Shown one piece after another: positions 8,219 through 42,274 of a DNA stretch of 44,462 bases. A program made the translations under genes and the position numbers. The notes under the pieces were generated by a model. That model was not told the origin of the DNA, ran no database searches, and saw only the letters and a list, made by a program, of their open reading frames with translations. Within the stretch, counting starts at the first letter, position 1. Each line of letters begins with the position of its first letter. Source of the stretch: Nitrospirota bacterium (GTDB lineage Bacteria; Nitrospirota; Thermodesulfovibrionia; UBA6902; DSMQ01); contig JACRGX010000008.1 in the NCBI GenBank assembly GCA_016212185.1, positions 1-44,462 on the forward strand, read 5' to 3'.

Positions 8219-8285
8219 ATGAGGGAGAAACATATCCAATAGACATCCTCCTTGAAAAATCGGGCGATAATTGATACCTTACCCT

Positions 8286-11294: not shown

Positions 11295-11523
11295 AAGGGT
11301 CTTCCTCCAGCTTGAAGAAGGCGGCATCCCCAAACAGACAGCCAAAGAGACGCTAAAGGCATTGGATGAGCTCAAAAAAGAAATAATGAACCCATTGAAA
11401 GTTCTGGCAGTTCTTCAAACGCAGATACCTGAGCGCTTTCTTTCAGGGCACTATGCAGAGCGCCATCCTCAATCCTTCAGCAAGAGAGAGGTAATATTAT
11501 CAATGTATTTGATAGGAGGATAG
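11272..11523 (+). CDS. Probable detached C-terminus of the helicase (frameshift) or small coupled protein
   Basis: An 83-residue frame overlapping the helicase end by 23 bases. Its sequence continues the helicase naturally: helicase ...LTDEQELY plus LKRVFLQLEEGG from this frame gives one smooth amphipathic segment, and only one T needs removing in TTTATTCTTAA near 11285-11294. The rest (NPLKVLAVLQTQIPERFL, then KREVILSMYLIGG) looks like a domain end rather than a free small protein. Alternatives: a real overlapping gene translated from ATG 11272 by coupling, programmed frameshifting, or a sequencing error. It ends two bases before the next gene, so no independent signals are visible. Confidence 0.6.
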   Translation: MSRSFILKRVFLQLEEGGIPKQTAKETLKALDELKKEIMNPLKVLAVLQTQIPERFLSGHYAERHPQSFSKREVILSMYLIGG

Positions 11524-11525
11524 AT

Positions 11526-12353: not shown

Positions 12354-12354
12354 C

Positions 12355-15300: not shown

Positions 15301-15831
15301 CAGCAGAGAGACGATCAGGGGAAATTCTGGTGGGAGCTGCGGTCATGCGCTTATTATCAGGAATTCGAGCAGCCGAAGATAACCTGGGGTAATCTCGCTA
15401 CTGAACCAAAGTTTGCTATTGATGAAGAGGCATGTTACGTGAGTGCACCCGCCGTTATAATTCCAACAAATGACGTCTACCTTTTAGCTGTTCTCAATTC
15501 ACCGCTTTGCAAATGGTGGATCAGCATGCAAGCAGCAGTGCGTTCAGGCGGCTTTCTGGAATATAAACCAATGTATGTCGGAACAGTGCCAGTAGTTAAA
15601 ACCACCGATAAACAAAAAGTTTCTATAGTCACCCTTGTCAACCAAATCCTCACCGCCAAAAAACAACCCCCTTCATCCCCCTTTTCTAAGGGGGAATTAT
15701 CTAACGCCGACACCTCTCTGCCTGTGCGTTGCACGCAGACAGGCGCCCTCGAAAAACAAATCGACGAAATGGTCTACGCCCTCTACGGCCTTACGCCGGA
15801 AGAGATTGCGATTATTGAAGGACGAAAATGA
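12355..15831 (+). CDS. Eco57I/PglX-like N6-adenine DNA methyltransferase
   Basis: About 1158 residues starting one base after the Bro-N stop. Motifs: DPEMLGKVFENLLEV and GTYYTPREIVHYM before the catalytic core, SAM-binding motif I CDPAIGSGAFPVGM (D at about 510), LYGVDIDPGAVEIAKLRLWL, and the adenine-methylase motif NPPY (711-714). The C-terminal third resembles a TaqI-type specificity region (WLRGRDIKKW, then APAVIIPTNDVYLLAVLNSP). I see no unambiguous nuclease motif; HKIDILVVKLKK near the N-terminus is only weakly suggestive. With the PLD-helicase it could form a restriction-modification or BREX/DISARM-like system. The gene carries at least four in-frame repeat inserts, one ending only eight residues before NPPY. 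Confidence 0.88.
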   Translation: MDKQQAQDIVKETFESSFDKGMFTGFIKNLLNSIEDAPFSYKGNLIPDAYEQYISTLERIGKYSAGDHKIDILVVKLKKKTSIERARTMQRNFIAWYLNGSRGGEMKDAALAAFVSPNGEDWRFSLVKMDYRFEEGKNSKVKVKEEFTPARRWSFLVGKNENSHTAQSKLYPIIADDEHKPTLAELEETFNIEKVTKEFFEKYRDLFLRTKETLDEVVSGDKKIKADFEAKGVNTVDFAKKLLGQIVFLYFLQKKGWFGVKRDTEWGTGTKHFLRELFEGRHGTYTNFFNDILEPLFYEALRIDRSHDDGYYSRFNCKIPFLNGGLFDPINNYDWVHTDIILPNELFSNSFKTKEGDKGNGILDIFDRYNFTVKEDEPLEKEVAVDPEMLGKVFENLLEVKDRKSKGTYYTPREIVHYMCRQSLISYLATELSDCHSPSSSCHSCKDGNPVPSREDIETLIKYGEQVGENEATVVAKGRETDTYYHKLPERIRQNAVLIDEKLANIKVCDPAIGSGAFPVGMMSEIVKTRQILSAYLSPSPSSPPIKGGEIDGSPLPRRERARERGAERTPYNFKRECIEKSLYGVDIDPGAVEIAKLRLWLSLMVDEEDIKQIKPLPNLDYKIVCGNSLLGVNLMFHHQALLKFEDLKGKFFEETNPKKKTEFKNEIDNLIREITNDDKHFDFKIYFSEIFNPSVSPLIKGGGFDIVIANPPYVRHEAIKDMKPELKKQFGEFFCGTADIYTYFYHRGLDVLKSDGHLCFIAPNKFMRAGYGKNTRALLATKATPKIVIDFCDLPIFDATTYPSVLLVEKRKPSEQDKTFAVTFTTEEQLAHIDETIGIIGFEMPILALRPEGWNLEQPEVIALMEKLRKAGMPLGEYVHGKFYYGIKTGLNEAFVIDLDTRKRLIKEDPKSNELIKPWLRGRDIKKWTAEWAGLYLINIQSSSNHHWPWSDEKAESKAKKIFKETYPSIHDHLTQWKDKLQQRDDQGKFWWELRSCAYYQEFEQPKITWGNLATEPKFAIDEEACYVSAPAVIIPTNDVYLLAVLNSPLCKWWISMQAAVRSGGFLEYKPMYVGTVPVVKTTDKQKVSIVTLVNQILTAKKQPPSSPFSKGELSNADTSLPVRCTQTGALEKQIDEMVYALYGLTPEEIAIIEGRK
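13656..13707. repeat. In-frame GTCATTCC-type repeat in the methyltransferase
   Basis: Contains ATTGTCATTCCCCC and then GTCATTCCTGCAAAGACGG with GGGAATCCAG, the same family as the intergenic palindrome at 18250-18306. It encodes a cysteine- and serine-rich loop (CHSPSSSCHSCKDGNPV) out of character with the rest of the enzyme. Confidence 0.7.
13967..14053. repeat. Double in-frame palindrome in the methyltransferase
   Basis: Two palindromes back to back: CCCCTCCTATCAAGGGAGGGG and CCCTCTCCCCCGGCGGGAGAGGG (shown in part: CCCTCTCCC / GGGAGAGGG). Read as a SPPIKGGEIDGSPLPRRERA-like loop between motif I and the LYGVDIDP motif. A CCCTCTCCC / GGGAGAGGG hairpin also occurs between genes at 19588. Confidence 0.8.
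14431..14466. repeat. In-frame palindrome next to the NPPY catalytic motif
   Basis: CCCCTCTTATTAAGGGGGG palindrome encoding SPLIKGGGF, eight residues before the NPPY motif. Its tolerance so close to the active site is notable. Confidence 0.75.
15667..15744. repeat. Two in-frame palindromes near the methyltransferase C-terminus
   Basis: CCCCCTTTTCTAAGGGGG (peptide SPFSKGE) followed by CTGCCTGTGCGTTG / CACGCAGACAGG (peptide SLPVRCTQTGA). After them the protein returns to family-like sequence LEKQIDEMVYALYGLTPEE. Confidence 0.75.
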
Positions 15832-25001: not shown

Positions 25002-26330
25002 ATGATAACCTTGGATTTTACAAATATGATGACTGCTCAGGGGCTGACCCCTGAAGACATAAACGCCCTTAAAGACAGGCTTAAGATAATTCATGCGGAC
25101 ATAACACAGAAAAAAAACCGTGAATTTCACTTTCTGAACCTGCCATCTGAAAATACCGAACAGATAAGCCTGATGGCGGATAATGTAAAAAATACCTCTG
25201 ACTTTTTTTTGCTTCTCGGTATCGGCGGTTCGGCTCTGGGGCCAAAGGCAATACTTCAGGCCTTAAAACCGTTTTACAACCTTAAACACTCCCCAAAGAT
25301 TTTTATTTACGATAATGTAGACCCCGGCACTCTTACATCAATACTGTCAATTGTTGACCTAAAGAGGACCACGGTAAATGTCATCACAAAATCAGGCAGC
25401 ACGGTTGAAACAATGGCTTCTTTTTTAATCCTGATGAATGCCTTAAAAGAAGTGCACGGAGATAAATTTTCAAAACGGATTATTGCAACTACGGACCCGG
25501 AAAAAGGCGCCCTGAGGGAAATAGCCGCGAAAACCGGCTTCAGGACCTTGCCTGTTCCGCCTGATGTAGGCGGCAGATACTCTGTCCTCAGTCCGGTCGG
25601 GCTTTTATCGTCCGCGGTTGCAGGAATAAATATAAACGGGCTGCTGAAGGGCGCGCGCGACATGCTCAAAAAATGCAGTGATGAAGATATATGGAAAAAT
25701 CCTGCATACATGGCCGCATCCCTTATGTATCTCATTGACAAAAAGAAAGGGAGAAATATATCAGTGCTGCTTCCGTATTCCGACAGGCTGAAAACCTTTT
25801 CTGAATGGTACTGCCAGTTATGGGCAGAGAGCCTTGGAAAAAATGGCGCGGGACAGACGCCGTATCCGTCATTAGGCACAACTGACCAGCATTCACAGCT
25901 TCAGCTCTGGATAGAGGGTCCGGCAGACAAGGCCGTAACCTTTATAAAAATTGATGATTACGGCTCAGATATGCTTATTTTAAAGGAAGACTCAGGCTCC
26001 ATGGGCTACCTGAAAAATCACAGTCTCGGAGAGCTGATTAAGGCAGAACAGGAGGCTACGGAGCTTGCGCTTCAGAAAGCAGGCATCCCCAATATGCGGC
26101 TTAATGTGCCCATGATAGATGCATATTACACGGGTCAAATCTTCCTGTTTTTTGAACTTGTAACTGCCGTAACAGGCATGCTTTACGGGATAAATCCCTT
26201 TGACCAGCCGGGGGTAGAGGAAAGCGAGCATTTAACCTATGGGATAATGGGCCGTGAGGGCTATGAAAATAAAGGACGGGAAGTGTCAAACTACAGGGAG
26301 AAAATACAAAAGTCAAAATATAAAATTTAG
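25002..26330 (+). CDS. pgi: Glucose-6-phosphate isomerase (complete copy)
   Basis: 442 residues. Interconverts glucose-6-phosphate and fructose-6-phosphate. SIS-domain phosphosugar motif NVITKSGSTVETMA, GIGGSALGPKAIL before it, and the C-terminal signature LGTTDQHSQLQL with the catalytic His. AGAGGGGAG lies about eight bases before the ATG. The last 98 residues (from LIKAEQEATELALQKAG) recur about 5.4 kb downstream, next to pyrE, differing by 11 residues in my hand alignment. So either this 3' end or the downstream one was brought in when the intervening operon arrived. Confidence 0.95.
   Translation: MITLDFTNMMTAQGLTPEDINALKDRLKIIHADITQKKNREFHFLNLPSENTEQISLMADNVKNTSDFFLLLGIGGSALGPKAILQALKPFYNLKHSPKIFIYDNVDPGTLTSILSIVDLKRTTVNVITKSGSTVETMASFLILMNALKEVHGDKFSKRIIATTDPEKGALREIAAKTGFRTLPVPPDVGGRYSVLSPVGLLSSAVAGININGLLKGARDMLKKCSDEDIWKNPAYMAASLMYLIDKKKGRNISVLLPYSDRLKTFSEWYCQLWAESLGKNGAGQTPYPSLGTTDQHSQLQLWIEGPADKAVTFIKIDDYGSDMLILKEDSGSMGYLKNHSLGELIKAEQEATELALQKAGIPNMRLNVPMIDAYYTGQIFLFFELVTAVTGMLYGINPFDQPGVEESEHLTYGIMGREGYENKGREVSNYREKIQKSKYKI
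26035..26330 (+). repeat. Direct repeat, upstream copy (pgi 3' end)
   Basis: Matches 31407-31702. The two copies start together at TGATTAAGGCAGAACAGGAG and are identical for about 25 bases, then diverge mainly at third codon positions to the stop. Sequence before the start of the match is unrelated. Spacing between copies is 5372 bases. Confidence 0.9.
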
Positions 26331-26379
26331 AGTAGAATGTCAAAACGACACGCATGGGTCATTGCGAACGTAGTAAAGG

Positions 26380-27957
26380 TTACACTTGATCTCTTTTACT
26401 GTCGTAACTCCAAAAAAGTTTCCTACAGTTTTTAAGAATTATATCAATTACATTAAGATATTGTGATATTGAGGGATCCAGTTGTTTTTTAAAGTTTACA
26501 TCCGGATTTTGTGTAATGATTTTGACAATTTTCAGAGCTAACTTTCTGGTGTATCTGACAAAGTCTGATCGGATAGAATAGTATCTATCTACGATTTTCC
26601 CCTCTTTCTTCTCTACAACGAAACTTAAATCGAACATCAAGGAATATAGCTCTTTTACTTCATTCTGCTCGGCTATAAACATAAAAGCTTTTTCTATATT
26701 AGCCATTATAGGTCTTCCTAAATTTTTATCATAGGCGTAGCTCCAGTATGATGGGTGAATAAAAGATGAAAATTCATTTTTTATTAAATCGGGAAATTTT
26801 GATTTCATTTTTGTCAATAAATGAGTTCCCGGATACAAATCTAATTTTTTTAACAATAGACGCCATGATAATGCATTGTGCATTGATAAAACATTAATAA
26901 GATCAAGAAGTTCTTCAGGTGATAAAAAAGGATGTAATGTTATGATACCTGGAAGTATGTTAATTCCAAATTTTCTTGCTGTATTCCAGAATAGCAAATT
27001 GTTTTGTCTAGTAGTATTCTTGCCTAGAAATTTTAAGGTATTATCAGAAAAACTCTCAAATCCAACGAAAGCAGTAATATGAGCAATTTGACTCAACTGA
27101 TTTAATGCATCTAAAGGCATGTGTGGTTCAAGAAAAAGCTTAAGGTAAAGACGGGCCTTTTTTAGGTCGCAATTCTTTACTAAATTGCAAAAAAGAATTG
27201 TTCGATGAGATAATTTTGGTGGGCAAAAATTCTCATCAGCAATATAGAAGGTATCTATTCCTTTATGCCAAGCTGCCTCCATTACCTGTACTAATTTCTC
27301 TATACTTGCCAGTTCTTGCCATTTCGGAGAGGGGCAAAAGTGGCACCTATTGGGACACCCTTTCGCGGTGATCAGCTTCAATATGGATTTCTTCATATTA
27401 GGCACATTAAACTGTATAGAAATAGGCTTTGAATTCTTTGAAGAAACTTGTAGAGAAGAATCCTTGCCCGCATTAATTATTTGTCCTGAAAATCGTAAAA
27501 AAGTACCGTTTGTAATTTCAGGTGTAACACCTCCACCATCTTTTAATCGTAGAAGAATTTTCTCAAGACTACTTTCCCCTTCACCCTTAATTACAATATC
27601 AATATTAGATTCAGCCAATAAGATTTCTCTCCCAGCCGGCCAATTAGGACCTCCTATAAGTATAATAGAGTTAGGATTTTTATCCTTGATAAGAGAAGAT
27701 AATTCAAAAATAGTTTTCATATTTGTGTAGACAGCATAGAAGCCAACTACTGCAGAGACTTGTATTCTCTTTAAAATTTCCGCTTTGTCTAATTTTTTAT
27801 AAGCTCCATCCAGAATTTCTATTTTAAAACCTCTATTTGTTAAATAGTCTCTGAGGACATATAGACCCATGGTTGGTTCATGAAGCATTTGACCATAACT
27901 TCTTGTACTAGAATATATGCCAGGATTTATTAGCAATAAATCATTCTGCTGCTTCAT
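26380..27957 (-). CDS. B12-binding-domain radical SAM protein
   Basis: About 525 residues from ATG 27957 (a TTG at 27972 is less likely, since the ATG overlaps the upstream stop as ATGA). N-terminal cobalamin-binding Rossmann part: LLLINPGIYSS, then PTMGLYVLRDYLTNRGFKIE, VVGFYAVYTNM, IILIGGPNWP. Radical SAM cluster motif CPNRCHFC (C201, C205, C208), then YIADENFCPP and GFESFSDNTLKFLGKN, typical of the MiaB/BchE-like class. Last gene of a four-gene AT-rich operon. Such enzymes methylate or rearrange unactivated carbons; the substrate here is unknown, perhaps made by the kinase and isomerase upstream. Confidence 0.85.
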   Translation of the reverse strand: MKQQNDLLLINPGIYSSTRSYGQMLHEPTMGLYVLRDYLTNRGFKIEILDGAYKKLDKAEILKRIQVSAVVGFYAVYTNMKTIFELSSLIKDKNPNSIILIGGPNWPAGREILLAESNIDIVIKGEGESSLEKILLRLKDGGGVTPEITNGTFLRFSGQIINAGKDSSLQVSSKNSKPISIQFNVPNMKKSILKLITAKGCPNRCHFCPSPKWQELASIEKLVQVMEAAWHKGIDTFYIADENFCPPKLSHRTILFCNLVKNCDLKKARLYLKLFLEPHMPLDALNQLSQIAHITAFVGFESFSDNTLKFLGKNTTRQNNLLFWNTARKFGINILPGIITLHPFLSPEELLDLINVLSMHNALSWRLLLKKLDLYPGTHLLTKMKSKFPDLIKNEFSSFIHPSYWSYAYDKNLGRPIMANIEKAFMFIAEQNEVKELYSLMFDLSFVVEKKEGKIVDRYYSIRSDFVRYTRKLALKIVKIITQNPDVNFKKQLDPSISQYLNVIDIILKNCRKLFWSYDSKRDQV

Positions 27958-28709
27958 TTCCTTGTAGGCCAAAGAATTTCTGCCTCTTGGTTACTTGTAT
28001 ATTCTTGGAATTTTTTTTCTGCAAAGTGGAGTAAAGCAACACCAGTTTCTGTTGTTCTATCTACAAAGATTTGTATATTGCGGCGTCCAGCAATTTTTGT
28101 GTTTCTGTCATAATATGTGTACCATCCGACAATACCATAACGCGGACCACGGGAATCTGCTAATAAAATGCAGCGGAATGAAGGCGTATTATGTGACCTA
28201 TATATCTTTAGCCGAGATTCTACATCTGGGACATCCAGTTCAAGGTCATGTATAATTTTATAATACATAGCTGGCCCAAGTTTTTCACGATCCCTTGGAT
28301 CAGGATTAGGGCTTCTTTCACTAAAACAAGTAATTATTTCGATTTTATATTTTCTATGTGATTCTATGAGCTCACGTAAAAAGGAGGATCGAGAAGATAG
28401 TCCAGCAGATAAAACATTTATTGATTTAATAGCAGTATCTTCCTTTAATAGATATCGTACTTTTTCTTGTGCCTCCTCTTCAGATCCAATGGCTAAAGGT
28501 GTTACTCGCCAAAGGCTGGTTGATAGAAGAAGAAGTACCTCGACAAGTGTAGTCAGAACTACTATTTCAAAAAGATGTTTTTCTATTAAAAACTGTAACA
28601 CCTGGGGAGCAATAAGACTTGCAATAAGAAGGATGTCAAGTATAAATAATATCGTAACTAATGTAATAACAGAGTGCTTTCCTATTAAGAAGTTTATAAT
28701 TTTTTTCAT
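27954..28709 (-). CDS. Unrecognised membrane protein with cytosolic domain
   Basis: 251 residues. Two membrane helices at the N-terminus (VITLVTILFILDILLIASLI and IVVLTTLVEVLLLLSTSLW), then a soluble region from about residue 80. The soluble part has SAGLSSRSSFLRELI, ITCFSERSPNPDPRDRE, CILLADSRGPRYGIVGWYTYY and IFVDRTTETGVALLHFAEKK. The tail order (an LLAD strand, GxxxY, a final helix) reminds me of phosphatidyltransferase/PLD-like folds, but I see no HKD motif and will not assign it. ATGA overlaps at both ends tie it to pfkB and the radical SAM gene, so it acts with them. Confidence 0.7.
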   Translation of the reverse strand: MKKIINFLIGKHSVITLVTILFILDILLIASLIAPQVLQFLIEKHLFEIVVLTTLVEVLLLLSTSLWRVTPLAIGSEEEAQEKVRYLLKEDTAIKSINVLSAGLSSRSSFLRELIESHRKYKIEIITCFSERSPNPDPRDREKLGPAMYYKIIHDLELDVPDVESRLKIYRSHNTPSFRCILLADSRGPRYGIVGWYTYYDRNTKIAGRRNIQIFVDRTTETGVALLHFAEKKFQEYTSNQEAEILWPTRK

Positions 28710-29623
28710 ATTATTCTTTGTGTTATGTCACATTGTATGTTACAAAGATAGTTCGGAATTAGTTTGCGAGAAATTTCACCAAGAGGAAAATCACGAGTGA
28801 AAGATGCTCCACAGGCAATGGCAAACTGGACTGCTTCACCAAAACTACATTTATCCAGAAGGGCACTAATCGCTCCAGCAAGAAAAGCATCGCCTCTTCC
28901 ATATATACGCTTGGTAAATTGTGTGAAGTTTGGATAGCGCCAAATATAATTATCGTAAATTGCATAACAGTATCTTTCGGTATTAAGTACCACAAGGGCA
29001 ACCCCTTTCTTATGTAAATTACAAGCAGCTTGGATGTCCCGGTTAATTCTTGAGATACCTTGATTGTTATACTTAATAAAATAAGGGGTTTTCTTATATA
29101 CATTTTGCGCGAATGTACCTCTTGAATCAACAATTACTTTTACCCCTTGCTTAATAAGTGAATTCACTAAGTCTAAGATAATGCGCTCAGAAAACTCATC
29201 TGGAACACTTCCGCCGATTAAAACGACCGTGTTATCAGCAATTTCGGAATAGTAATCATAAATAAATTTTCTAAGTGTAGCTGAATCAATCTTAGGGGAA
29301 GGTGCAACAAACATTTTTCTGTTATTACCACTCATTAATATTGAGGTAACTCGGGTTTCCTCCTTATTCTCAGAGAAGCAAAATGGAACCCCCTCTTTAA
29401 CCAGATCCATCCTTACTAACGTACCAATCTCCCCTCCAATAATAATATAAAGTTTGAAAGAACGCTTAAGCCCTTGAAGCCCTCTTGCAACGTTAACTGC
29501 CGATCCACCAGCAGCAATACAACTATGTTTTGTAAATATCTTTTGGTTAAAAGAAAAGTCTTCTCCTTGAAAAAATATATCAAGCGTGGGATTTAAGGTT
29601 ATTAATGCAACATTTTTCCTCAT
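28706..29623 (-). CDS. PfkB-family sugar kinase (1-phosphofructokinase-like)
   Basis: 305 residues of the ribokinase/PfkB fold. LNPTLDIFF at the N-terminus, AAGGSAVNVARGLQ (38-50) as in 1-phosphofructokinase and tagatose-6-phosphate kinase, a VDSRG strand, FIKYNNQGIS, and the C-terminal active-site loop. That loop reads YGRGDAFLAG (241-250) where the family has GAGD; the catalytic D245 stays but the anion-hole alanine is arginine. So activity may be altered or the donor unusual. 35 bases after pgi2 and ATGA-overlapping with the next gene. Product could be fructose-1,6-bisphosphate or a related ester. Confidence 0.85.
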   Translation of the reverse strand: MRKNVALITLNPTLDIFFQGEDFSFNQKIFTKHSCIAAGGSAVNVARGLQGLKRSFKLYIIIGGEIGTLVRMDLVKEGVPFCFSENKEETRVTSILMSGNNRKMFVAPSPKIDSATLRKFIYDYYSEIADNTVVLIGGSVPDEFSERIILDLVNSLIKQGVKVIVDSRGTFAQNVYKKTPYFIKYNNQGISRINRDIQAACNLHKKGVALVVLNTERYCYAIYDNYIWRYPNFTQFTKRIYGRGDAFLAGAISALLDKCSFGEAVQFAIACGASFTRDFPLGEISRKLIPNYLCNIQCDITQRII

Positions 29624-29658
29624 AAGCCTAAAGTGACTAATACTTTCTTACCCTTATT

Positions 29659-31059
29659 CTAAAATAGAAATAGTTTACGTTCATTATCGAATGCAGCCAA
29701 TTCGGCTTCATATTGTGAACGCATAGAAGCGTGGTCTTTCCTTCCCATGAGAGAATATGTAATATTTTTTCCTTCCTCTACCCCAGGTTGATCAAACGGG
29801 TTGACATTCCAAAGTTTGGCAGTAAAAACAACAAGTGACTCCATAAAGTAAAATAGTGCCCCCAAGGTAGAAGCAGAGATGTCTTTAAGAAAAATTCGAT
29901 AGCAAGGACGGTTAGCCCGCACTAAACTTATCTCAGTAGATAGTTGCTCAATCTTAAGTTGCTCACTCAAAGTATGTCCGGCGAAGTAAGAATATTCCAC
30001 TTCAGAGGGGAATTCATTAGTTAGTGTAATATCGGATGGAAAATCATCAACTGTAATGAAACCGAAAACTTTATCGTCTGGCCCTTCTTTAAAAAGCTGC
30101 AAAAGCGAATGTTGATCCGTAGCCCCTAAAGCGGCAAGTGGTGTTGTACCTGCGTTGATAACATTTCCAGTTGTAGACTTTTTCTTCCCAAGGCTTTCTG
30201 ACCATAATTGAACGAACCAAAGGCCAAATTCAGAAAGAATATTACTATAATTGAATAATACGTGAATTGACTTGCCGTTGTTGGATAGTTCCGATAAGCA
30301 AGATCCTAGTGTAAATATAGCATTTTGTTGGGCTGGGGTGCTAACAATTGCATGATGCATTTTGGCTGCACCCTCTAAAAGTTCTCTGCTATCTATACCA
30401 ATAAGTTCAGAAGGTAGGAATCCGACCGGAGATAAAACTGAGTATCTGCCAGGCAAGTCGGAAGGGACATGCAGTATGTGGCATCCAATATTTCTTGCTA
30501 TGCGGTTAATACCATTATCCCCCGGATCGCAAATAATGACTATATCTTTTGTAAAACCTCCAGCTTCTCTATACTTTTTATAAAAGTAAACGAAGTTTGC
30601 TGCTGGTTCGGGCGTAGAACCTGACTTGCTTATATAAACGAGAGCAGTTTTCCTGAAATCAAGGATATCCCCCAAATGCTTTGCAAGTATAGGATCCACA
30701 TTGTCCAGAACAAAAACACGTGGCCAATCACGTAATATAGCTTCAAAATTACGAAAAGGCCCTTTAAGATATTGAACGATTGTCCTAAAGCCTAATGTGG
30801 AGCCTCCAATACCAATAACAAGTATATTTTCATATTTCCCTCGTAAAGATTCAGCTATATCTTTGATAGCTAATATAGAGGACTCTGTCAAAAATGAACG
30901 AGTAATCGGTGATATTTTCTGTTCCAAAGATGCCCGAATTTCATCAAAACAAGAATTATATTTTTCATGAAAAGAATTAAAAGTGGACAAAGAAATAAAG
31001 TTCTTAGTATCTTCTTCGTCAAGCAAATGACCGACATCAACTTTTAATATTTCCTTCAT
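29659..31059 (-). CDS. Second, divergent glucose-6-phosphate isomerase-like protein
   Basis: About 466 residues from ATG 31059, chosen because GGAGAG lies seven bases before it; an ATG at 31074 would add MESNS. SIS motifs IGIGGSTLGFRTI and YISKSGSTPEPAAN, and C-terminal ALGATDQHSLLQL with NPFDQPGVEEGKN. It aligns with the complete pgi along its length but is clearly a different, more AT-rich lineage, so not a recent duplicate. First gene of the four-gene minus-strand operon. Substrate may be F6P/G6P or a related sugar phosphate. Confidence 0.88.
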   Translation of the reverse strand: MKEILKVDVGHLLDEEDTKNFISLSTFNSFHEKYNSCFDEIRASLEQKISPITRSFLTESSILAIKDIAESLRGKYENILVIGIGGSTLGFRTIVQYLKGPFRNFEAILRDWPRVFVLDNVDPILAKHLGDILDFRKTALVYISKSGSTPEPAANFVYFYKKYREAGGFTKDIVIICDPGDNGINRIARNIGCHILHVPSDLPGRYSVLSPVGFLPSELIGIDSRELLEGAAKMHHAIVSTPAQQNAIFTLGSCLSELSNNGKSIHVLFNYSNILSEFGLWFVQLWSESLGKKKSTTGNVINAGTTPLAALGATDQHSLLQLFKEGPDDKVFGFITVDDFPSDITLTNEFPSEVEYSYFAGHTLSEQLKIEQLSTEISLVRANRPCYRIFLKDISASTLGALFYFMESLVVFTAKLWNVNPFDQPGVEEGKNITYSLMGRKDHASMRSQYEAELAAFDNERKLFLF

Positions 31060-31074
31060 ACTATTGCTCTCCAT

Positions 31075-31405
31075 TATAATTTCCGGGATATTCTAAAAAA
31101 AGAAAAGATAACTATTTACAAAATCGTTCAGAGAATCCAATAATTTTATCTTTGATAAATTAGACCTCCCTCCCCACACAGTAATATTATATCAACATCC
31201 TTATGCGTGGTAATATTCGTAAGTTCATTATATTTTTAATACTAAATTATTATACAAGGGTTATTCAAAAAAATAAACTCTCCATATCACCTTTGCCTAA
31301 GATGTTATTGTATGCTATTATCTTAGCTAAAGATGCAGATTTCAAGATACCAAAAGTATTCGAAGACGTGGAAGGCATGAATTATCAGGGCATAGTTTTT
31401 GCAAA
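31075..31405. other. AT-rich spacer, right edge of the pgi-flanked operon
   Basis: No convincing gene. A 68-codon plus frame (31203-31409) lacks a ribosome site and reads straight into the pgi fragment junction, so I reject it as a gene. The region should carry the promoter of the minus-strand operon: on the minus strand TATAAT occurs at about 31187-31192, but no good -35 accompanies it. Confidence 0.5.
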
Positions 31406-31702
31406 TTGATTAAGGCAGAACAGGAGGCTACAGAGCTTGCGCTTCAGAAGGCAGGCGTCCCGAATATGAGGCTTAATGTCCCGATGATAGATGCGTATTA
31501 CACCGGACAGCTCTTTTTGTTTTTTGAACTCGTGACTGCCGTAACAGGCATGCTTTACGGGATAAATCCCTTTGACCAGCCTGCAGTGGAAGAGGGCAAG
31601 AATCTGACCTATGGGATAATGGGACGCAAAGGCTATGAGCAAAAAGGACTTGAGGTATCAAATTACAGGGATAAAATTCAGAAATCAAGGTACAAGATAT
31701 GA
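31406..31702 (+). pseudogene. pgi 3' fragment (98 codons, no 5' part)
   Basis: Encodes the last 98 residues of Pgi from LIKAEQEATELAL to KSRYKI, about 87 of 98 identical to the end of the complete Pgi. Upstream of TTG 31406 the sequence is unrelated, so there is no start signal and no SIS domain. It lies directly before pyrE. Likely the original pgi end displaced by insertion, or what is left of a tandem second copy. Confidence 0.85.
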
Positions 31703-31740
31703 GAAGGGGGCAAGGATTCAAGGGGGCAAGGGGTAAAGAT

Positions 31741-31793
31741 TTCAAAATTCGTGACCCGTTACGCGTTACGCGTCAAGGGTCACGAATTTTGAA
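31741..31793 (+). promoter_or_regulatory. 17-bp perfect hairpin before pyrE
   Basis: TTCAAAATTCGTGACCC (31741-31757) and GGGTCACGAATTTTGAA (31777-31793), loop of 19 bases with ACGCGTTACGCGT. Eleven bases before the pyrE ATG, so it would sequester or space the start. It could be a repeat element or an attenuator. Confidence 0.5.
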
Positions 31794-31803
31794 CCCTGCT
31801 GAA

Positions 31804-32376
31804 ATGAAACAGCGGCTTATTGAATTAATACTTGCGCGTTCTTTTAAATTCACAAAAAAACCTTCATTCACCCTTGCTTCAGGGAAAAAAAGCAATTTTT
31901 ATTTTAACTGCAAACTAACAACTCTTAATTCAGAAGGAAAATATCTCATAGGCAATCTTTTGTATAAAATAATTGAAAAGTGGAAGCCGGGCGGGATTAA
32001 AGCAGTCGGAGGACTCACGCTGGGCGCAGACCCCGTTGCAAATGCAATTGCCTATACGGCACATCTCAAGGGGAAAAATATGGAGGCATTTGTCGTAAGA
32101 AAGGCCGCCAAAAAACACGGCACCATGCAGTGGATAGAGGGCCATGTAAAAAAAGGCGATAAGGTCATAATCGTGGAGGACGTCATCACAACCGGAGGCT
32201 CAAGTATTGAGGCAATTAAAAAAGCCGGAGAATGCGGGCTGAAGGTCGCAGGCGTCCTTGTGCTTATAGACAGGCAGGAAGGCGGCAGGGAGGCGATAGA
32301 GGCATTGGGCATACCTGTCAAAATCCTGCTGACAAAAGAAGAGATTTTCAAGGCGTATAAAAACAGATGTAAGTAA
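31804..32376 (+). CDS. pyrE: Orotate phosphoribosyltransferase
   Basis: 190 residues. Converts orotate and PRPP to OMP in pyrimidine synthesis. PRPP-binding motif VIIVEDVITTGGSSIEAI is intact; FTLASGKKSNFYFNCK and MEAFVVRKAAKKHG are the substrate regions. ATG 31804 is chosen because the extension up to 31699 reads through repeat DNA and the hairpin and is not family-like. No good Shine-Dalgarno is visible, perhaps because the hairpin ends just before. Confidence 0.95.
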   Translation: MKQRLIELILARSFKFTKKPSFTLASGKKSNFYFNCKLTTLNSEGKYLIGNLLYKIIEKWKPGGIKAVGGLTLGADPVANAIAYTAHLKGKNMEAFVVRKAAKKHGTMQWIEGHVKKGDKVIIVEDVITTGGSSIEAIKKAGECGLKVAGVLVLIDRQEGGREAIEALGIPVKILLTKEEIFKAYKNRCK

Positions 32377-35375: not shown

Positions 35376-35873
35376 ATGTTTAAGGCAGTAGATAATTTAA
35401 AAGAGCAAAAAGGCTTTACCCTTATTGAACTGCTCATCGTCGTTGCAATCATCGGTATCCTTGCTGCTATAGCAATACCCGGATATCTCGGCATGCAGGA
35501 AAGGTCCAGAAAGGGCGCTGTCACAAGGTCTGCGTCAGCTGCAGAGCCTGAACTTCAGGCATGGCTTAATTCTTCTTTGAAAACAGGCACCGGCGCAACA
35601 TTAAGGGAAAATGACACTGACGGTAACGGCGCTATTGACGGTAGTGATGATACAAATTCCGAACTGTCTGTGGCAGGCGTATGCGCCGAGTATATAGTCG
35701 CTCAGACTGCATTGGGCAGACAATCCCCATGGGCAGGCGTGGGAAACCTCTGGTCTACTGCTGTAGGCAGCGGACAGATTGCATGTATCATGTCTGGCAC
35801 AACAGCCGTGTCAATAACTGCAAGGGACAACGGCGGAGTTAATATCCATACCAAGACTATTTATTCTGATTAG
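35376..35873 (+). CDS. Type IV pilin with an EF-hand-like loop
   Basis: 165 residues. Class III signal: short leader, then QKG-FTLIELLIVVAIIGILAA, with cleavage after G13 and the conserved Glu at +5, followed by the hydrophobic spine helix. The globular part holds DTDGNGAIDGSD (80-91), a 12-residue calcium loop with D at 1, D at 3, N at 5, D at 9 and D at 12. Two cysteines (in GVCAEY and IACIMSG) could close a disulfide. Strong AGGAGG precedes the ATG. Whether it is a major pilin or a minor/pseudopilin cannot be told; no assembly genes are in the window. A terminator follows at once, inside the next gene. Confidence 0.9.
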   Translation: MFKAVDNLKEQKGFTLIELLIVVAIIGILAAIAIPGYLGMQERSRKGAVTRSASAAEPELQAWLNSSLKTGTGATLRENDTDGNGAIDGSDDTNSELSVAGVCAEYIVAQTALGRQSPWAGVGNLWSTAVGSGQIACIMSGTTAVSITARDNGGVNIHTKTIYSD

Positions 35874-37813
35874 TGGCAACTCATTGTGATTCAAAGCCTG
35901 GGGAAGCCGTCTTCCCCAGGCTTTTATTATTCCTGCTTTCATTCTCCTTAATACTTGTTTATTCCTTAGCCCCAACTGTTTATGTCGGCGACAGCGGTAT
36001 TTTTACCGCTTCATCATATTCCCTCGGTTCGGCGCATCCGCCCGGCTATCCGTTATTCTTACTGCTTGGGAAGCTTCTGACTTTCATACCGTTTGGAAAC
36101 ATTGCATTTAAGGTCAATCTCGTGTGCGCTGTTTTCGGGGCGCTGACCGTCCTGCTGTCTTACATGACAGCCTTTTACCTTACAAAAAATTATGCCGCAG
36201 GCATAGTTGCATCACTTGCCGTTTTAGCCTCGCCCAACTTTATCCTTGAGTCTTCAAAGGCAGAGGTTTATACGCTAAATACTTTTTTAATCGTCCTTAT
36301 ATTTTATTTAGGGCTGAGGGCCTTAAAAGAAACCGATTTCTTCCGGAGCATATTAATCTCATCTTTTATCTTAGGGCTCGGCATGGGCAATCACCATATA
36401 GCCGGTTTTATGCTCATTCCCCTGCTTTATGCGGTCTTTGCAAGGAGAAAGGATATTCCTTTTGGCACAATCACACTAAGCATTCTTTTATTCATTACAG
36501 GGTTTTCCGTTTATCTTTACTTGTACATCAGGAGCCATACAAATACCTTTATTGATTATTCACAGGTTCATTCCTTCAGGGACTTTCTTACGGTTTTTTT
36601 CAGGGCTGAATATTCAGGAGGCACTCTTAAGACCATTGAAGGCACTCCTAATTACAGTATCGGCTGGCTTTATTCCATAAAAAATATCGGACGAATCCTG
36701 TCCTCAGAGGTTCACCCTGTCATATGGCTTTTTGCACTTATAGGCACGGCAAGCCTGCTTAAAAACAAAAAGCTCTTCGGATATATTTTTATTTCGCTTG
36801 TGATATGGCTGCTTCTTGCCAAAATGACTATCGGTCAAAAAGAGCCTACTTATCATGACCTGTTTATTATCAGCCCGTATTTTCTGCAGCTTATTCCTAT
36901 CGCTGGGATTCTTGCCGGTGCAGGCTTATATAAATGTTATGAAAAAATTAATGCCCGTTCATCCCTTGTGGCTCAAACCGTAGCACTCGGATTAATTATT
37001 TTTCAGGCAGCTTACGTCCCAGTCGCAATTCAAAAATCATCCCTCACCGAATACTTCACCGCATATAACTGGATAAAAGATATTTCAAAGGTCTTAAAAA
37101 CAAAGAGCTTTTATTTTGCATTCGGGGATAATCCCGCCTTTTTAGGCTTTTATGGTTTTGGAGTTGAACGGCTGAGAGACGATGTGCTGTACATGGATGC
37201 CGCTTCTGGAAACAGCAGCTTTCGCCTTATCCTTTCTCCCCGGTGGAAATTCGGCATGTGGTATCCTGAGTTCTACGAAACGGCAGGAACCTCCATCAAA
37301 TACTTTTATCCCATCGCTGAGGAGGGCCGGTTGTATGCAAGCAGTATCGGCTCGCTCCCTCAGTTTTTCAAAAACAGGTTTGACGTAAAAGGCTATGTCA
37401 TAATCCCAATACTCCTGCCTAAAGGCAACAAATTTCCGTTGAACGAACAGTTGAAAGAAAACTTTGAGAAAATTGATTATCTTCCCATAATTACAGGAGA
37501 CAACAGGGATATCATGACTGCGGATATCCGCAGATCCTATGTATTAACCATATGGGAATATGCCAACCTTCTTGCCGCTGAAAATTCAAAAGACACCGAC
37601 TATTTTTACAGGCTTGCATTTTTTATAGCAAGAAGGGGGTTCAAGGATGAAATAATAAAAGATTATGTAAATTTTTTGTATGATAAAAGGGGCAATGCGG
37701 CCGCCGCAAAATTCATCTCAGAGCTCAAATATGCCGTGTCTGATACGGAGATGAAAAACGATATAGCCGTCATTGAAAAATGGTACAGGACTGAATTTAA
37801 TAGCAGGAAGTAA
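35873..37813 (+). CDS. DUF2723 multi-pass membrane protein (GT-C-like)
   Basis: 646 residues. The start is GTG 35873, overlapping the pilin TAG; no other usable start lies before the first helix. About a dozen membrane segments. The motif VGDSGIFTASSYSLGSAHPP (short acidic site then AHPPGYPLF) is the hallmark of DUF2723, a GT-C-type family thought to transfer sugars from lipid carriers to proteins. A soluble part follows. A long hairpin in its first codons (35893-35924) should limit its expression relative to the pilin. It may glycosylate the pilin or act in the polymer pathway below; inference only. Confidence 0.82.
   Translation: MATHCDSKPGEAVFPRLLLFLLSFSLILVYSLAPTVYVGDSGIFTASSYSLGSAHPPGYPLFLLLGKLLTFIPFGNIAFKVNLVCAVFGALTVLLSYMTAFYLTKNYAAGIVASLAVLASPNFILESSKAEVYTLNTFLIVLIFYLGLRALKETDFFRSILISSFILGLGMGNHHIAGFMLIPLLYAVFARRKDIPFGTITLSILLFITGFSVYLYLYIRSHTNTFIDYSQVHSFRDFLTVFFRAEYSGGTLKTIEGTPNYSIGWLYSIKNIGRILSSEVHPVIWLFALIGTASLLKNKKLFGYIFISLVIWLLLAKMTIGQKEPTYHDLFIISPYFLQLIPIAGILAGAGLYKCYEKINARSSLVAQTVALGLIIFQAAYVPVAIQKSSLTEYFTAYNWIKDISKVLKTKSFYFAFGDNPAFLGFYGFGVERLRDDVLYMDAASGNSSFRLILSPRWKFGMWYPEFYETAGTSIKYFYPIAEEGRLYASSIGSLPQFFKNRFDVKGYVIIPILLPKGNKFPLNEQLKENFEKIDYLPIITGDNRDIMTADIRRSYVLTIWEYANLLAAENSKDTDYFYRLAFFIARRGFKDEIIKDYVNFLYDKRGNAAAAKFISELKYAVSDTEMKNDIAVIEKWYRTEFNSRK
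35893..35929 (+). terminator. Intrinsic terminator of the pilin gene inside the next coding start
   Basis: AAAGCCTGGGGAAG (35893-35906), loop CCGT, CTTCCCCAGGCTTT (35911-35924), then TATTATTCC. 14-bp perfect stem. The codons it spans read SKPGEAVFPRLL of the DUF2723 protein. Confidence 0.75.
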
Positions 37814-37826
37814 TCCTTATAAAATA

Positions 37827-39077
37827 ATGAAGGTTGTCCAGATAACAAATCTTTATCCCCCCTTTGCCAGAGGAGGCGCGGAAATATATGTTGAAAATCT
37901 TGTAAAGGCATTGTCTTCCGGCAGTGCAGATAATGTCTATGTAATTACAAATGTCCGCGGCAGGGAATTTAAAGACAGGCGCATTATCAATCTGAATCTT
38001 AGAAACTCTGATGCCCTGACATCCCTTCTCATTCCAAATTTTTTAATTTATAAAAAAATTAAAAAATTTCTCTCGGAATTACAACCTGATATCGTGCATG
38101 TGCATAATATTCACGCCACATTAAGCTCTGCCGCCGTCTTTGCCTCGCGAGGCTTCCCCCTTGTCATGACCGTGCATGATTTCTACCTTTTCTGCCCGAC
38201 ATTACGGTTTGTGCATGAGGATGGGAAAATATGCGCCATGGACAAATGTATTACCTGCATGAAAAAATACTATTCCTCCGAAATAAAAAAAAGGTGGGGC
38301 GCATGCCGAATCTTTTCCGGAATGCTGAGATCTGATATGTTTTGCAGACTGCTTTATGAAATCCGCAAAAACCGCCTGAAGCGGATAATCCCCCTTATTG
38401 ATAAATTCATCTGCCCCAATAAATCACAAAAAGAATTGCTTAAGGTAGCAGGCGTGCCGGAAGACAAACTGACAACACTGCCTTACACATCTGACTTTAA
38501 AGTAAAAGAAATTGCCCGGCCCGAAGGGAAATATATAGGCTACGCAGGAGGACTCATCAGGGAAAAGGGAGTTCATGTACTGCTTGAGGCATTGAGCCTT
38601 TTGCCTGAAGACACAAAACTCCTAATTGCCGGCGACGGCATATTCAAAAACGAGCTTGTACGGATGTCTGGGAATTTAGGCATAAAAAACAGGGTGCGCT
38701 TTCTGGGAAAACTCGGAAGGGATGAGATGAGAAGTTTTTATGATAAGATACATGTGCTCGTTGTTCCATCCCTCTGGCCCGAGGTGCTTGGTATTGTGGG
38801 GCTTGAGGCAATGACATCAGGGAAGCCGGTTATTGGCAGCAATATAGGCGGCATACCTGACTGGATAGAAGACGGCGTTAACGGTTTTCTGGTTCCTCCT
38901 GATTCGCCTAAGTCGCTTGCAGAAAAGGCAATGACTTTATTTAATACGGAAGACATGATTTATAAATTCGGGCTTAACGGGCAGAAAAAATTTACAGATG
39001 AATTTTCGCCCGAAGTTCATAAAAACAAGATAATTAATTTATACAGAAAGCTCTTGCATGGACATAACATTAATTGA
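37827..39077 (+). CDS. GT4-family glycosyltransferase
   Basis: 416 residues from ATG 37827, chosen because MKVVQITNLYPPFARGGAEIYVEN is the standard GT-B start (quoted in part: NLYPPFARGGAEIYVENL); the frame opens earlier inside the previous gene. C-terminal donor site: KYIGYAGGLIREKGVHVLLE, then PSLWPEVLGIVGLEAMTSGKPVI with the E-x7-E. A cysteine-rich insert (FCPTLRFVH, CAMDKCITCMKK) is typical of some GT4 subfamilies. Cytoplasmic, membrane-linked, uses nucleotide sugars. Overlaps the next gene by 20 bases. Confidence 0.9.
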   Translation: MKVVQITNLYPPFARGGAEIYVENLVKALSSGSADNVYVITNVRGREFKDRRIINLNLRNSDALTSLLIPNFLIYKKIKKFLSELQPDIVHVHNIHATLSSAAVFASRGFPLVMTVHDFYLFCPTLRFVHEDGKICAMDKCITCMKKYYSSEIKKRWGACRIFSGMLRSDMFCRLLYEIRKNRLKRIIPLIDKFICPNKSQKELLKVAGVPEDKLTTLPYTSDFKVKEIARPEGKYIGYAGGLIREKGVHVLLEALSLLPEDTKLLIAGDGIFKNELVRMSGNLGIKNRVRFLGKLGRDEMRSFYDKIHVLVVPSLWPEVLGIVGLEAMTSGKPVIGSNIGGIPDWIEDGVNGFLVPPDSPKSLAEKAMTLFNTEDMIYKFGLNGQKKFTDEFSPEVHKNKIINLYRKLLHGHNIN

Positions 39078-40470
39078 CCCGACAGGCGCAACGAGGGGGC
39101 TGAACGCCGGACTGGCATATCTTGCAGGCTCGCTCTTGTCCAAAGGCAAAACAGTCAGAGTTATTGACCTCAACAACCGGCAGGATAATTTTGAACAAAG
39201 GATACGGCAGATTGACAGCGGCATTGTCGGAGTCTCGCTTAAATCCGCCACTGCCGCCTCTTCAAAACCGCTGATTAAACTTCTGAATGAAAATAAGAAA
39301 ATACGATTTAAGCTCTGCGGAGGCCCTCACATCACGGTAGCAGGCAGGGACTTTATTGAAAAATACGGTTTTGACGCCGGAGTAATCGGAGAGGCTGAAA
39401 ATACAATAGTAAATTTTCTGGAATATGCAGAGGGCAGAAGGGACCTTGGCAGTATCGGCAATATCTGGCACAGGGACAAAACAACAGGCGATATTTGTCA
39501 TTTCGGGCTGAAAGAACATGAGCAAAACCTGGACCTGCTGCCGTTTCCTGATTATGAGGTATTTGACTCCTTCAGGGGCCTAATAGAAGACTATCCGCTT
39601 CTTACAAGCCGAGGCTGTCCTTATCAGTGCATCTACTGCTGTGTCGGAGCAGTCTCAGGCAGGAAATGGCGCGCAAGGGAAGTTGACAACATAATTAAAG
39701 AACTCCTTGAGGCGCAGAAAAAATATCATTTTAAAAAATTTCATATAATAGATGACAACTTCACGCTTGATACCGGCAGAACAAAAGATTTTTGCAGGAG
39801 ATTGCTTGAAAGCGGACTGCAAAAGGAATGGCATTGCCCCAACGGCGTAAGGGCTGACAGGCTGGACGAAGAATTGCTGAGCCTGATGAAGATGTCAGGC
39901 TGTTCGTCTATTAATATCGGGATTGAGAGCGGCGTTCAAAAGGTTTTTGACAGTCTGAAAAAAGGAGAGGCGCTTGCAGATATAGAACAGGCCATAAAAT
40001 CGGCTGAAAAAACCGGCATCAGGGTTAATGGATTTTTTATCCTCGGACTGCCGGGAAGCACTTATGCGGATGATATGAAAAGCCTTGAATACAGTGAGGC
40101 GCTCAGGTTAAATGATGCGCTTTTTAACCTTATCAGCATTTATCCAGGCACAGAACTCTGGGAAAACATAACCGGCGACAAAAGGATAAAAATCCTCAGA
40201 GACTGGACAGACTCTTTTCATTTCGGAGGCAATGCAGAGCCCGTGTTTGAGACGGAAGATTATGCGGCTAAAGACAGAAAAAAGGCATTTTACATCTCAA
40301 ATTTAAAGAGAAAGCATTATCTGGTTGTTGCGGGCGAGACCGGAAGTGTTTTAAAAAGGGCGCTGACAGCGCTGAAAATTATCCTGAAATACGACAGGCG
40401 CTCATTTTTCAGCCATGTCTTTTTCATCTTAAAAAATATGCGAAAGGTGCTGAGTCATGTCAGAAATTAA
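39058..40470 (+). CDS. B12-binding-domain radical SAM protein
   Basis: 470 residues. N-terminal cobalamin-binding region (LIDPTGATRGLNAGLAYLAG, then GIVGVSLKSATAASS, FKLCGGPHITVAGRDF, GVIGEAENTIVNFLE). Radical SAM motif CPYQCIYC (C187, C191, C194), then HIIDDNFTLDTGRTKDF and GIESGVQKVFDSLKKGE, GFFILGLPGSTYADD. Same broad class as the 26380 gene but in GC-richer DNA of host type. Overlaps both glycosyltransferase neighbours (20 and 14 bases), so it works on the same glycan, perhaps C-methylation of a sugar or a lipid; substrate unknown. Confidence 0.88.
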   Translation: MDITLIDPTGATRGLNAGLAYLAGSLLSKGKTVRVIDLNNRQDNFEQRIRQIDSGIVGVSLKSATAASSKPLIKLLNENKKIRFKLCGGPHITVAGRDFIEKYGFDAGVIGEAENTIVNFLEYAEGRRDLGSIGNIWHRDKTTGDICHFGLKEHEQNLDLLPFPDYEVFDSFRGLIEDYPLLTSRGCPYQCIYCCVGAVSGRKWRAREVDNIIKELLEAQKKYHFKKFHIIDDNFTLDTGRTKDFCRRLLESGLQKEWHCPNGVRADRLDEELLSLMKMSGCSSINIGIESGVQKVFDSLKKGEALADIEQAIKSAEKTGIRVNGFFILGLPGSTYADDMKSLEYSEALRLNDALFNLISIYPGTELWENITGDKRIKILRDWTDSFHFGGNAEPVFETEDYAAKDRKKAFYISNLKRKHYLVVAGETGSVLKRALTALKIILKYDRRSFFSHVFFILKNMRKVLSHVRN

Positions 40471-42274
40471 AAAAATAGATATTCTCATAATATGCTACGA
40501 GCGCACGCCGTTATTAGAGCAGTGCATAGAAAGCATTGATAAATTTACCCCGGGCATTGATTATAAAGTGCACGTTGTTGAGGGCAGGCGGAGCGCCGCT
40601 GAAAACAGAAACATAGCGCTTTCCATGGTCCGCTCTCCATGGTTTGTTATGATGGATGATGACGTAACCGTCTCGGATGGCTGGCTTGAAAAATTGCTTA
40701 AATACGCAGGCAACGGCATCGGACAGATACAGTCAAAACTGCTTTTCTCGAACGGACGGATTTTCTCTGCAGAGAAAATCTTTATTGCTCCATGGGGTGA
40801 AAACAAAGTCATCGGCATGGGCGAAAAAGACAACGGCCGGTTTGACTATGTAAGAACCGCTGAGCTGCTGTCCGGGACCTGCAATCTCTATAATTCAAAA
40901 ATACTTGACGCCTGCTCCTTTGATACAAACTATAAAGGCGCGCAGTGGGAAGACTGCGATTTTTCAATGCAGATAAAAATGAGCGGTTTTCATCTGCTTT
41001 ACTGCGGGGAATCGGCGGTATATCATCACAACCTTTACCGCAACGCCTTAACGGAAAATTATAATTATTTCAAAGAAAAATGGTTCGGCAGGCGGGAGCT
41101 GACCGGACGGGGCGTTCTATATGTGGGTTTGGCGTGTGATATTGACTGCGCCTTCTGTTATTACAAGCACGCGGCAGAAAGAAAATTTCATCCGCTTAAA
41201 GACCTGAAAAATAAATGCAGCAGGTTTAAAAAATTCTACGGCAATACGCATGTGGACATCACAGGCGGAGAGCCTACTATATACCCCTATATAATTCCTC
41301 TTGTTGAGCATTGCCGTATTATGGACCTCAAACCGACCATTATAACTCACGGGCAAAGGCTCACCCCGCAGCTTGTAAAAAACTTAAAGGACGCCGGCAT
41401 AGAGGATTTTCTTATTTCATGCCACGGCATGGAAAAAGAGCACGATTATGTAGTAAATAAACCCGGAGGATATAAAGCCATGCGCGCCGGCATTAAAAAT
41501 GTCCTTGATGCAGGGTTAACCTTCAGGACCAACACCGTCGTGACAAAGGTAAATTACAAAACCCTCCCCGGGCTTGCAAATGAATTCGCGGAAATGAAAC
41601 CCAAAGTTGTCAACCTCATCATGTTCAACCCCTTTCAGGAATGGATTAATCTTCCGCTGCAGGAATTCCAGATGCAATACAGCGAAGCGGCGCCGTACAT
41701 CATGGAAGCTGTTTCAATCTTAAGTTCAGCGGGGATTGAGGTGAATGTAAGATATATGCCCTTCTGCCTTTTTGAAGGCTTTGAAAAACACGTCATGAAT
41801 TTCCCCCAGCTTCCCTTTGACAGATGGGAATGGGACTTTAAGCCTTGCCACAGGCTTGACGGAGAATATGACTATCTTTTTTACGCCATGAAGGAAAATG
41901 CCATAAGATACGAACAGCCGCCTCCGTGCCGAAAGTGTTCTTTACTGCTTATCTGCAGCGGCCTGCCGAGGCAATACTCCAATGCATTTGGATATAATGA
42001 ACTTAAGCCCCGGGGCGGCAGGCCTGTGAGGGACCCGCTTTATTTTAAGGGCCTTAAATCCATTGCGGCATCTGCAAATAATGCCGTCCCTTATGCTCTG
42101 TCCCCCGAGGATTTTATTAAAACATATCCTGAATTAAAAAATTCAGACCCGCTGATTTATTATCAGACCCTGCCTTTTGAAAAAATAAATAAATTTTTGC
42201 TTGCCAAACATTTGTTTTTGAGAAAGGCTCTGCTGCGTCTGAAAAAAACAGCTAAGGCGCTTATTCAAAAGTGA
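40457..42274 (+). CDS. Fusion: GT2 glycosyltransferase + radical SAM
   Basis: 605 residues. Residues 1 to about 215: GT-A fold, KIDILIICYERTPLLEQCI start, AENRNIALS, then WFVMMDDDVTVSDGWLEKL with the metal-binding DDD (67-69), and QWEDCDFSMQIKMSG. From about 220: radical SAM, GVLYVGLACDIDCAFCYY with C227, C231, C234, then VDITGGEPTIYPYI (the GGE motif) and NTVVTKVNYKT. Near the end CRKCSLLLICSGLP suggests an auxiliary Fe-S site. Both halves keep their motifs. I do not know this combination as a named family. It suggests one chain that attaches and modifies a sugar. Confidence 0.88.
   Translation: MSEIKKIDILIICYERTPLLEQCIESIDKFTPGIDYKVHVVEGRRSAAENRNIALSMVRSPWFVMMDDDVTVSDGWLEKLLKYAGNGIGQIQSKLLFSNGRIFSAEKIFIAPWGENKVIGMGEKDNGRFDYVRTAELLSGTCNLYNSKILDACSFDTNYKGAQWEDCDFSMQIKMSGFHLLYCGESAVYHHNLYRNALTENYNYFKEKWFGRRELTGRGVLYVGLACDIDCAFCYYKHAAERKFHPLKDLKNKCSRFKKFYGNTHVDITGGEPTIYPYIIPLVEHCRIMDLKPTIITHGQRLTPQLVKNLKDAGIEDFLISCHGMEKEHDYVVNKPGGYKAMRAGIKNVLDAGLTFRTNTVVTKVNYKTLPGLANEFAEMKPKVVNLIMFNPFQEWINLPLQEFQMQYSEAAPYIMEAVSILSSAGIEVNVRYMPFCLFEGFEKHVMNFPQLPFDRWEWDFKPCHRLDGEYDYLFYAMKENAIRYEQPPPCRKCSLLLICSGLPRQYSNAFGYNELKPRGGRPVRDPLYFKGLKSIAASANNAVPYALSPEDFIKTYPELKNSDPLIYYQTLPFEKINKFLLAKHLFLRKALLRLKKTAKALIQK

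Follow-up and report, generated by a model that had tools for sequence, protein, structure and literature searches.

Mobile elements that integrate within coding genes are generally assumed to leave their target functional. In Escherichia coli, e14 is inserted near the 3′ end of a metabolic gene, icd, which it supplies with a new in-frame tail, while the native icd 3′ end (165 bp, icdC) is displaced to the other side of the element (PMC11148124). Site-specific integration in protein-coding genes is likewise described for the genomic islands situated at the 3′ end of trmE or in dusA (SGI1 type) (PMC8409611, PMC4482086). Here, we describe a locus that shares these features, in which a 5.37-kb AT-rich islet interrupts the 3′-terminal part of host pgi in a Nitrospirota genome. 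Only this genome is known to have the islet; its assembly is a draft in 103 contigs and metagenome-like.

In the window, i.e. the whole stretch of 44,462 nucleotides that was analysed, the islet is flanked by a 292-bp direct repeat, the two copies of which are 84% identical, are spaced by 5372 bp and correspond to a duplicated piece of the pgi 3′ end (Table 1). The repeat starts at a 25-bp core that is identical in the left copy, the right copy and the pgi gene of G001, a genome of the same genus. When up to three mismatches are allowed, this core occurs twice in the genome, and both occurrences are the islet junctions. The first-pass annotation, which treated the four genes between the copies as an operon, overlooked that the unit sits between two copies of the host pgi 3′ end.

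Table 1. Features of the islet and its flanks, with positions in the window.
Feature	Position	Strand	Evidence or remarks
Host pgi, 442 aa; codons 1–345 native, followed in frame by a foreign tail	25002..26330	+	PGI family matches; 89.4% overall to G001 pgi
Incoming pgi 3′ tail, the left repeat copy	26035..26330	+	K409E; 84% identical to both the right copy and G001
Left core (attL-like), TGATTAAGGCAGAACAGGAGGCTAC	26035..26059	+	Identical to 31407–31431
B12-binding radical SAM protein, 525 aa from ATG	26380..27957	-	Pfam B12-binding and Radical_SAM, 1e-10 each; CPNRCHFC
Membrane protein, 251 aa	27954..28709	-	Hydropathy
PfkB-family kinase, FruK/LacC/Pfk-2 group, 305 aa; GRGD, altered donor site	28706..29623	-	Pfam PfkB 3e-15
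Pgi2, complete xenologous glucose-6-phosphate isomerase, 471 aa	29659..31074	-	Pfam PGI 1e-30; 58–66% to Desulfotomaculia/TA06 PGIs
Non-coding, AT-rich stretch at the right end of the islet	31075..31406	.	Short ORF runs into the core
Right core (attR-like)	31407..31431	+	Same 25 bp as the left core
Displaced native pgi 3′ fragment	31407..31702	+	95.2% to G001 pgi; catalytic Lys kept, codons GGC AAG AAT
pyrE	31699..32376	+	Ancestral downstream neighbour of pgi

The empty site is preserved in G001, where uppP, atpI, pgi and pyrE follow one another uninterrupted, and pyrE is close to pgi in eight related loci. The right copy of the repeat, which adjoins pyrE, shares 95.2% identity with G001 pgi, whereas the left copy reaches only 84.0%. 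Along the hybrid gene, the identity to G001 measured by windows is about 0.82–0.98 up to the core and 0.72–0.77 near the end. This split indicates that the left tail arrived with the insert and that the native tail was displaced. Comparison with G001 places both crossovers within the 25-bp core, at codons ~345–353 of host pgi. The displaced fragment differs from G001 at two non-synonymous positions in 97 codons, which shows that the displacement is recent, and it is absent from all related pgi loci checked. Combined, the insertion, its exact ends and the foreign origin of the tail are well supported.

Judged by its sequence features, the locus has the anatomy of an integrative element that entered a coding gene site-specifically, with a duplicated 3′ end that restores the reading frame, identical cores and an empty site in a relative. 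Another hallmark, an encoded integrase, is missing: neither an integrase nor any other mobility gene was found in the insert, and positions 26331–31406 contain no gene beyond the four listed. Therefore, the islet would be either a remnant or an element mobilised in trans. The core was not found in viral contigs, nor the pgi tail in plasmids, and the window contains no tRNA or Rfam RNA.

All four islet genes are on the minus strand in one operon-like unit, with ATGA overlaps at 28706–28709 and 27954–27957; the first-pass annotation had stated the common direction and the two overlaps. A distance of 49 bp separates the end of host pgi from the radical SAM gene. Promoter-like sites for the operon are not more frequent than expected by chance in the non-coding right end. 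The GC content of the islet is 0.33–0.38, and GC3 is 0.23–0.30 in all four genes compared with 0.41–0.56 in the flanking genes. Furthermore, codon usage is alike among the four genes and unlike that of every flanking gene tested. Because these shared properties differ from those of the flanks, the four genes are one acquired unit, transferred jointly from a more AT-rich source.

The tail that the islet provides to host pgi is in frame, but it replaces the C-terminal lysine of the GVExGK motif by glutamate (K409E), with GVEEGK becoming GVEESE and the residues GKN becoming SEH. This lysine is invariant in all 109 PGI homologues compared, and both the displaced native fragment and G001 retain it. 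Of the 40 alignment columns in which at least 93% of these homologues agree, the hybrid protein departs at one, E409. We take Lys516 of wheat PGI to be equivalent to Lys518 of the rabbit enzyme and to the lysine lost in the host tail. Wheat Lys516 is a strictly conserved active-site residue that contacts O1 of the sugar and possibly has a role in ring opening (PMC9436075). Published activity data for a mutant at the Lys518 position were not found in the literature. Compared with G001, the tail has a dN/dS of 0.066 at a dS of about 1.0, and the 5′ part of host pgi a dN/dS of 0.078, so that both parts are under constraint. These observations suggest that the hybrid host enzyme is probably inactive or nearly so, yet folded.

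The islet brings its own isomerase, Pgi2, which retains all catalytic residues (K, R, E, H and K). The ORF call starts at 31074, and the start given in the first-pass annotation, 31059, is an in-frame ATG. In a scan of 84,980 species, the closest PGIs among the matches listed are six proteins sharing 58–66% identity with Pgi2, of which five are from Desulfotomaculia-type Bacillota and one is from candidate division TA06; the next among those listed share 34–44%. In a quick tree built from 101 PGIs, the partner of Pgi2 is the TA06 sequence, within the Desulfotomaculia/TA06 group with a support of 99 and far from the host PGI; the deeper placement of this group was flagged as a possible long-branch join. 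In each of the six genomes, the relative of Pgi2 is the sole PGI, which argues that Pgi2 is a housekeeping-type isomerase. The protein had been called divergent; it is instead an ordinary PGI of this type from another lineage. Taken together with the probable defect of the hybrid enzyme, Pgi2 has likely replaced the host PGI.

The kinase encoded next to Pgi2 is most similar to the 1-phosphofructokinase, tagatose-6-phosphate kinase and Pfk-2 families, all with scores under the curated cut-offs, and its top matches among solved structures come from these families too. TIGR03168, the 1-phosphofructokinase/hexose-phosphate kinase group, is still its best family with 128.6 bits against a cut-off of 216.4. 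With residue roles that we assign from E. coli Pfk-2, the comparison with 23 homologues shows that D15, N44, R91 and S139 on the acceptor side and the catalytic D245 are all kept. In contrast, the donor side is changed by A/S243R in the GXGD motif, E189G in NXXE, and S/T214N and G216E in the SLG loop. The GRGD noticed in the first-pass annotation is real: the loop reads YGRGD, and in 22 of the 23 homologues the position of the arginine is filled by A, S, C or T, the remaining one being unaligned there. The donor side is also changed at F275, where others have the small residues A, T, N or S; in TM0415, the two large hydrophobic residues that fill the ATP pocket are F221 and M266.

The second residue of GXGD is small in ATP-dependent enzymes of the ribokinase family, whereas the PPi-dependent members are marked by an Arg in GXGD, an Arg two positions before it and a Lys, as described by Nagata et al. 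(PMC5931981). The first-pass annotation had taken GRGD as a hint of a changed reaction, and the loop is indeed part of this published signature (PMC5931981). The islet kinase has the Arg of GXGD (R243) and also the signature Lys, though that Lys is general in its group. It lacks the Arg at position −2 of GRGD, where I240 is found, with R239 at −3, and it lacks the Glu of NXXE, which TM0415 retains. It seems reasonable to hypothesise that the protein is a hexose-phosphate kinase that uses pyrophosphate. Since the acceptor and catalytic residues are intact, a changed phosphate donor is favoured over a pseudokinase, which we consider less likely.

The radical SAM protein contains a B12-binding domain, a radical SAM domain and the CxxxCxxC motif of its superfamily; its matches to subfamilies are remote, with scores well below all curated cut-offs. 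In the membrane protein, a soluble C-terminal domain follows a hydrophobic N-terminal region with about two segments, the strongest peak of which covers residues 12–38. It gave no match in Pfam, PADLOC or PDB and only sub-threshold matches in NCBIfam and PHROG. No relative was found in the plasmid, phage and viral collections or in a pattern scan of the 84,980 species, and none that was credible in 200 relatives, 396 Nitrospirota and 300 genomes of the Desulfallas phylum; one weak match (L141) looks like a chance alignment in a GC-rich region. Two single-sequence AlphaFold predictions reached pLDDT values of only 44 and 37, because no homologues were found for an alignment. A phospholipase-D-like fold was considered from the order of strands and helices and is not claimed. 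A defence system was also considered and dropped, as PADLOC gave only a weak match to the radical SAM protein. The two proteins are co-transferred partners in the islet.

The first-pass annotation had envisaged the four genes as a pathway of their own and proposed a search for the same set in other genomes. At the 80 best PGI loci of the 84,980-species scan, the other three genes never adjoin, and the membrane protein is without a relative in about 700 whole genomes and in collections of plasmids, phages and viruses. The first-pass annotation had named a lack of co-occurrence elsewhere as counting against its reading, and within the range of these searches that is what was observed. As they turned up no further copy of the operon, a new pathway shared by several genomes was dismissed.

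We favour, with a probability of about 0.55, an acquired integrative islet that replaces the host PGI through insertion in pgi, delivery of a tail without the active-site lysine and takeover by Pgi2. The islet would have recombined at the 25-bp core in host pgi and would have supplied its own tail with the reading frame kept, so that the native 3′ end came to lie beyond the islet, as with e14 in icd. With the hybrid enzyme presumably inactive or nearly so, Pgi2 would carry the exchange between glucose-6-phosphate and fructose-6-phosphate. Pgi2 could then feed fructose-6-phosphate to the co-operonic FruK-type kinase, whose kept sugar-phosphate site and donor site unlike an ATP site suggest that it may use pyrophosphate. 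Such a state may have arisen neutrally: a Pgi2 islet in a related donor would have relaxed selection on the pgi of that donor, so that drift removed its lysine, and the islet, together with the decayed tail, later moved into this genome. This sequence of events involves no selfish logic and is one possible origin of the state just described. It needs no special design; relaxed selection is what one would expect from a redundant PGI, and the dS of the tail shows that it originated in a separate lineage. However, the tail is otherwise constrained, with the lysine as the sole near-invariant site changed, and the few non-synonymous differences of the displaced fragment leave little neutral time in this genome. 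We regard the neutral route as a serious but somewhat less than even prospect.

Selection on the element itself would offer another origin, a selfish disable-and-rescue scenario in which the tail is kept catalytically dead but folded, so that integration kills the host PGI and the islet PGI makes the host dependent, which prevents loss of the islet without any toxin. The cargo enzyme is indeed the enzyme of the target gene, and among the near-invariant residues the catalytic lysine alone is lost, in an otherwise preserved fold. This scenario seems unlikely, as it would rest on a single example without an integrase, precise excision might restore the native gene via the displaced fragment, and bacteria often tolerate the loss of PGI. 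Alternatively, the islet may be ordinary cargo whose tail leaves the host with an active Pgi in spite of K409E, with Pgi2 and the kinase serving a separate pathway, in line with the proposal of the first-pass annotation. Both the intact reading frame and the constraint on the tail would agree with this, and known elements do restore their target gene (e14 in icd, PMC11148124), but the presence of the lysine in every one of the 109 homologues and in the active site (PMC9436075) renders it rather doubtful. An assembly chimera of two related strains is quite improbable. The core is an exact shared word on which both junctions lie, as a chimera at this core would produce; two junctions at one word, however, would need another strain with the islet between two cores, in which case the islet would be real there.

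In this islet, the tail takes away an active-site residue and the cargo supplies the corresponding enzyme from a foreign source. If the favoured replacement of the host PGI is correct, this would point to the in-place replacement of a core glycolytic enzyme by mobile DNA and possibly to a toxin-free way for such DNA to become indispensable. The candidate PPi-using kinase would, if true, extend the use of pyrophosphate to the hexose-phosphate branch of the PfkB family.

Among the individual proteins, Pgi2 resembles the Desulfotomaculia and TA06 PGIs in identity (58–66%), in its complete set of catalytic residues and in clade, whereas in those genomes the gene stands alone on the chromosome and encodes the sole PGI. 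The radical SAM protein shares both domains and the CxxxCxxC motif with the B12-binding enzymes PhpK, HpnR, OxsB and TokK, but its identity to the proteins found is at most about 25%. The kinase has in common with the TM0415-type PPi-kinases (RXGRGD) the GRGD anion-hole loop, a Lys two residues before the Asn of NXXE and possibly, through F275, a bulky side chain close to the adenine pocket (PMC5931981). It differs from them in grouping by sequence with the hexose-phosphate kinases, and in having neither an Arg at −2 nor the NXXE Glu.

As a whole, the SGI1-type islands differ from the islet in being large and in carrying an integrase and other mobility genes (PMC8409611, PMC4482086). The e14 element has phage genes and its own integrase, whereas the islet has neither an integrase nor a mobility gene. 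We know of no trmE- or dusA-type island that carries a foreign homologue of its target. The e14 tail changes two residues, conservatively, while the islet tail changes 11, including the catalytic lysine, and, unlike e14, the islet encodes in its cargo the same enzyme as its target gene.

The short ORF at the right end of the islet (MLLYAIILAKDADFKIPKVFEDVEGMNYQGIVFAN) enters the right core, the attR-like copy of the 25-bp core, and ends there. It had no Pfam match and may be a truncated leftover of a longer gene. Elsewhere in the window, a segment grouping a helicase, a BRO-N protein and a large ORF is a possible defence or mobile region. A row of consecutive genes spanning 35376-43359 could represent a glycan-modification cluster.

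Features outside the four islet genes, in window coordinates
Feature	Position	Strand
Helicase with PLD-like domain, 1007 aa	within 8271-15831	
BRO-N protein	within 8271-15831	
ORF, 1202 aa	within 8271-15831	
Short ORF	31300-31409	+
Pilin-like protein	within 35376-43359	+
TMEM260-like O-mannosyltransferase	within 35376-43359	+
GT4 glycosyltransferases (two)	within 35376-43359	+
Further B12-radical SAM protein, besides the islet's own	39058-40470	+
GT2/radical SAM fusion	40457-42274	+

In candidate division TA06 (SM23_40; L061:4415-6224), the closest relative of Pgi2, the islet's own glucose-6-phosphate isomerase (PGI), is preceded by a small cupin-like gene, recognised by eye, which possibly encodes a second sugar-phosphate isomerase.

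Many genomes of the host's order contain a much longer PGI of about 555-575 aa with an identity of only 27-31%. PGI has thus already undergone replacement within this order.
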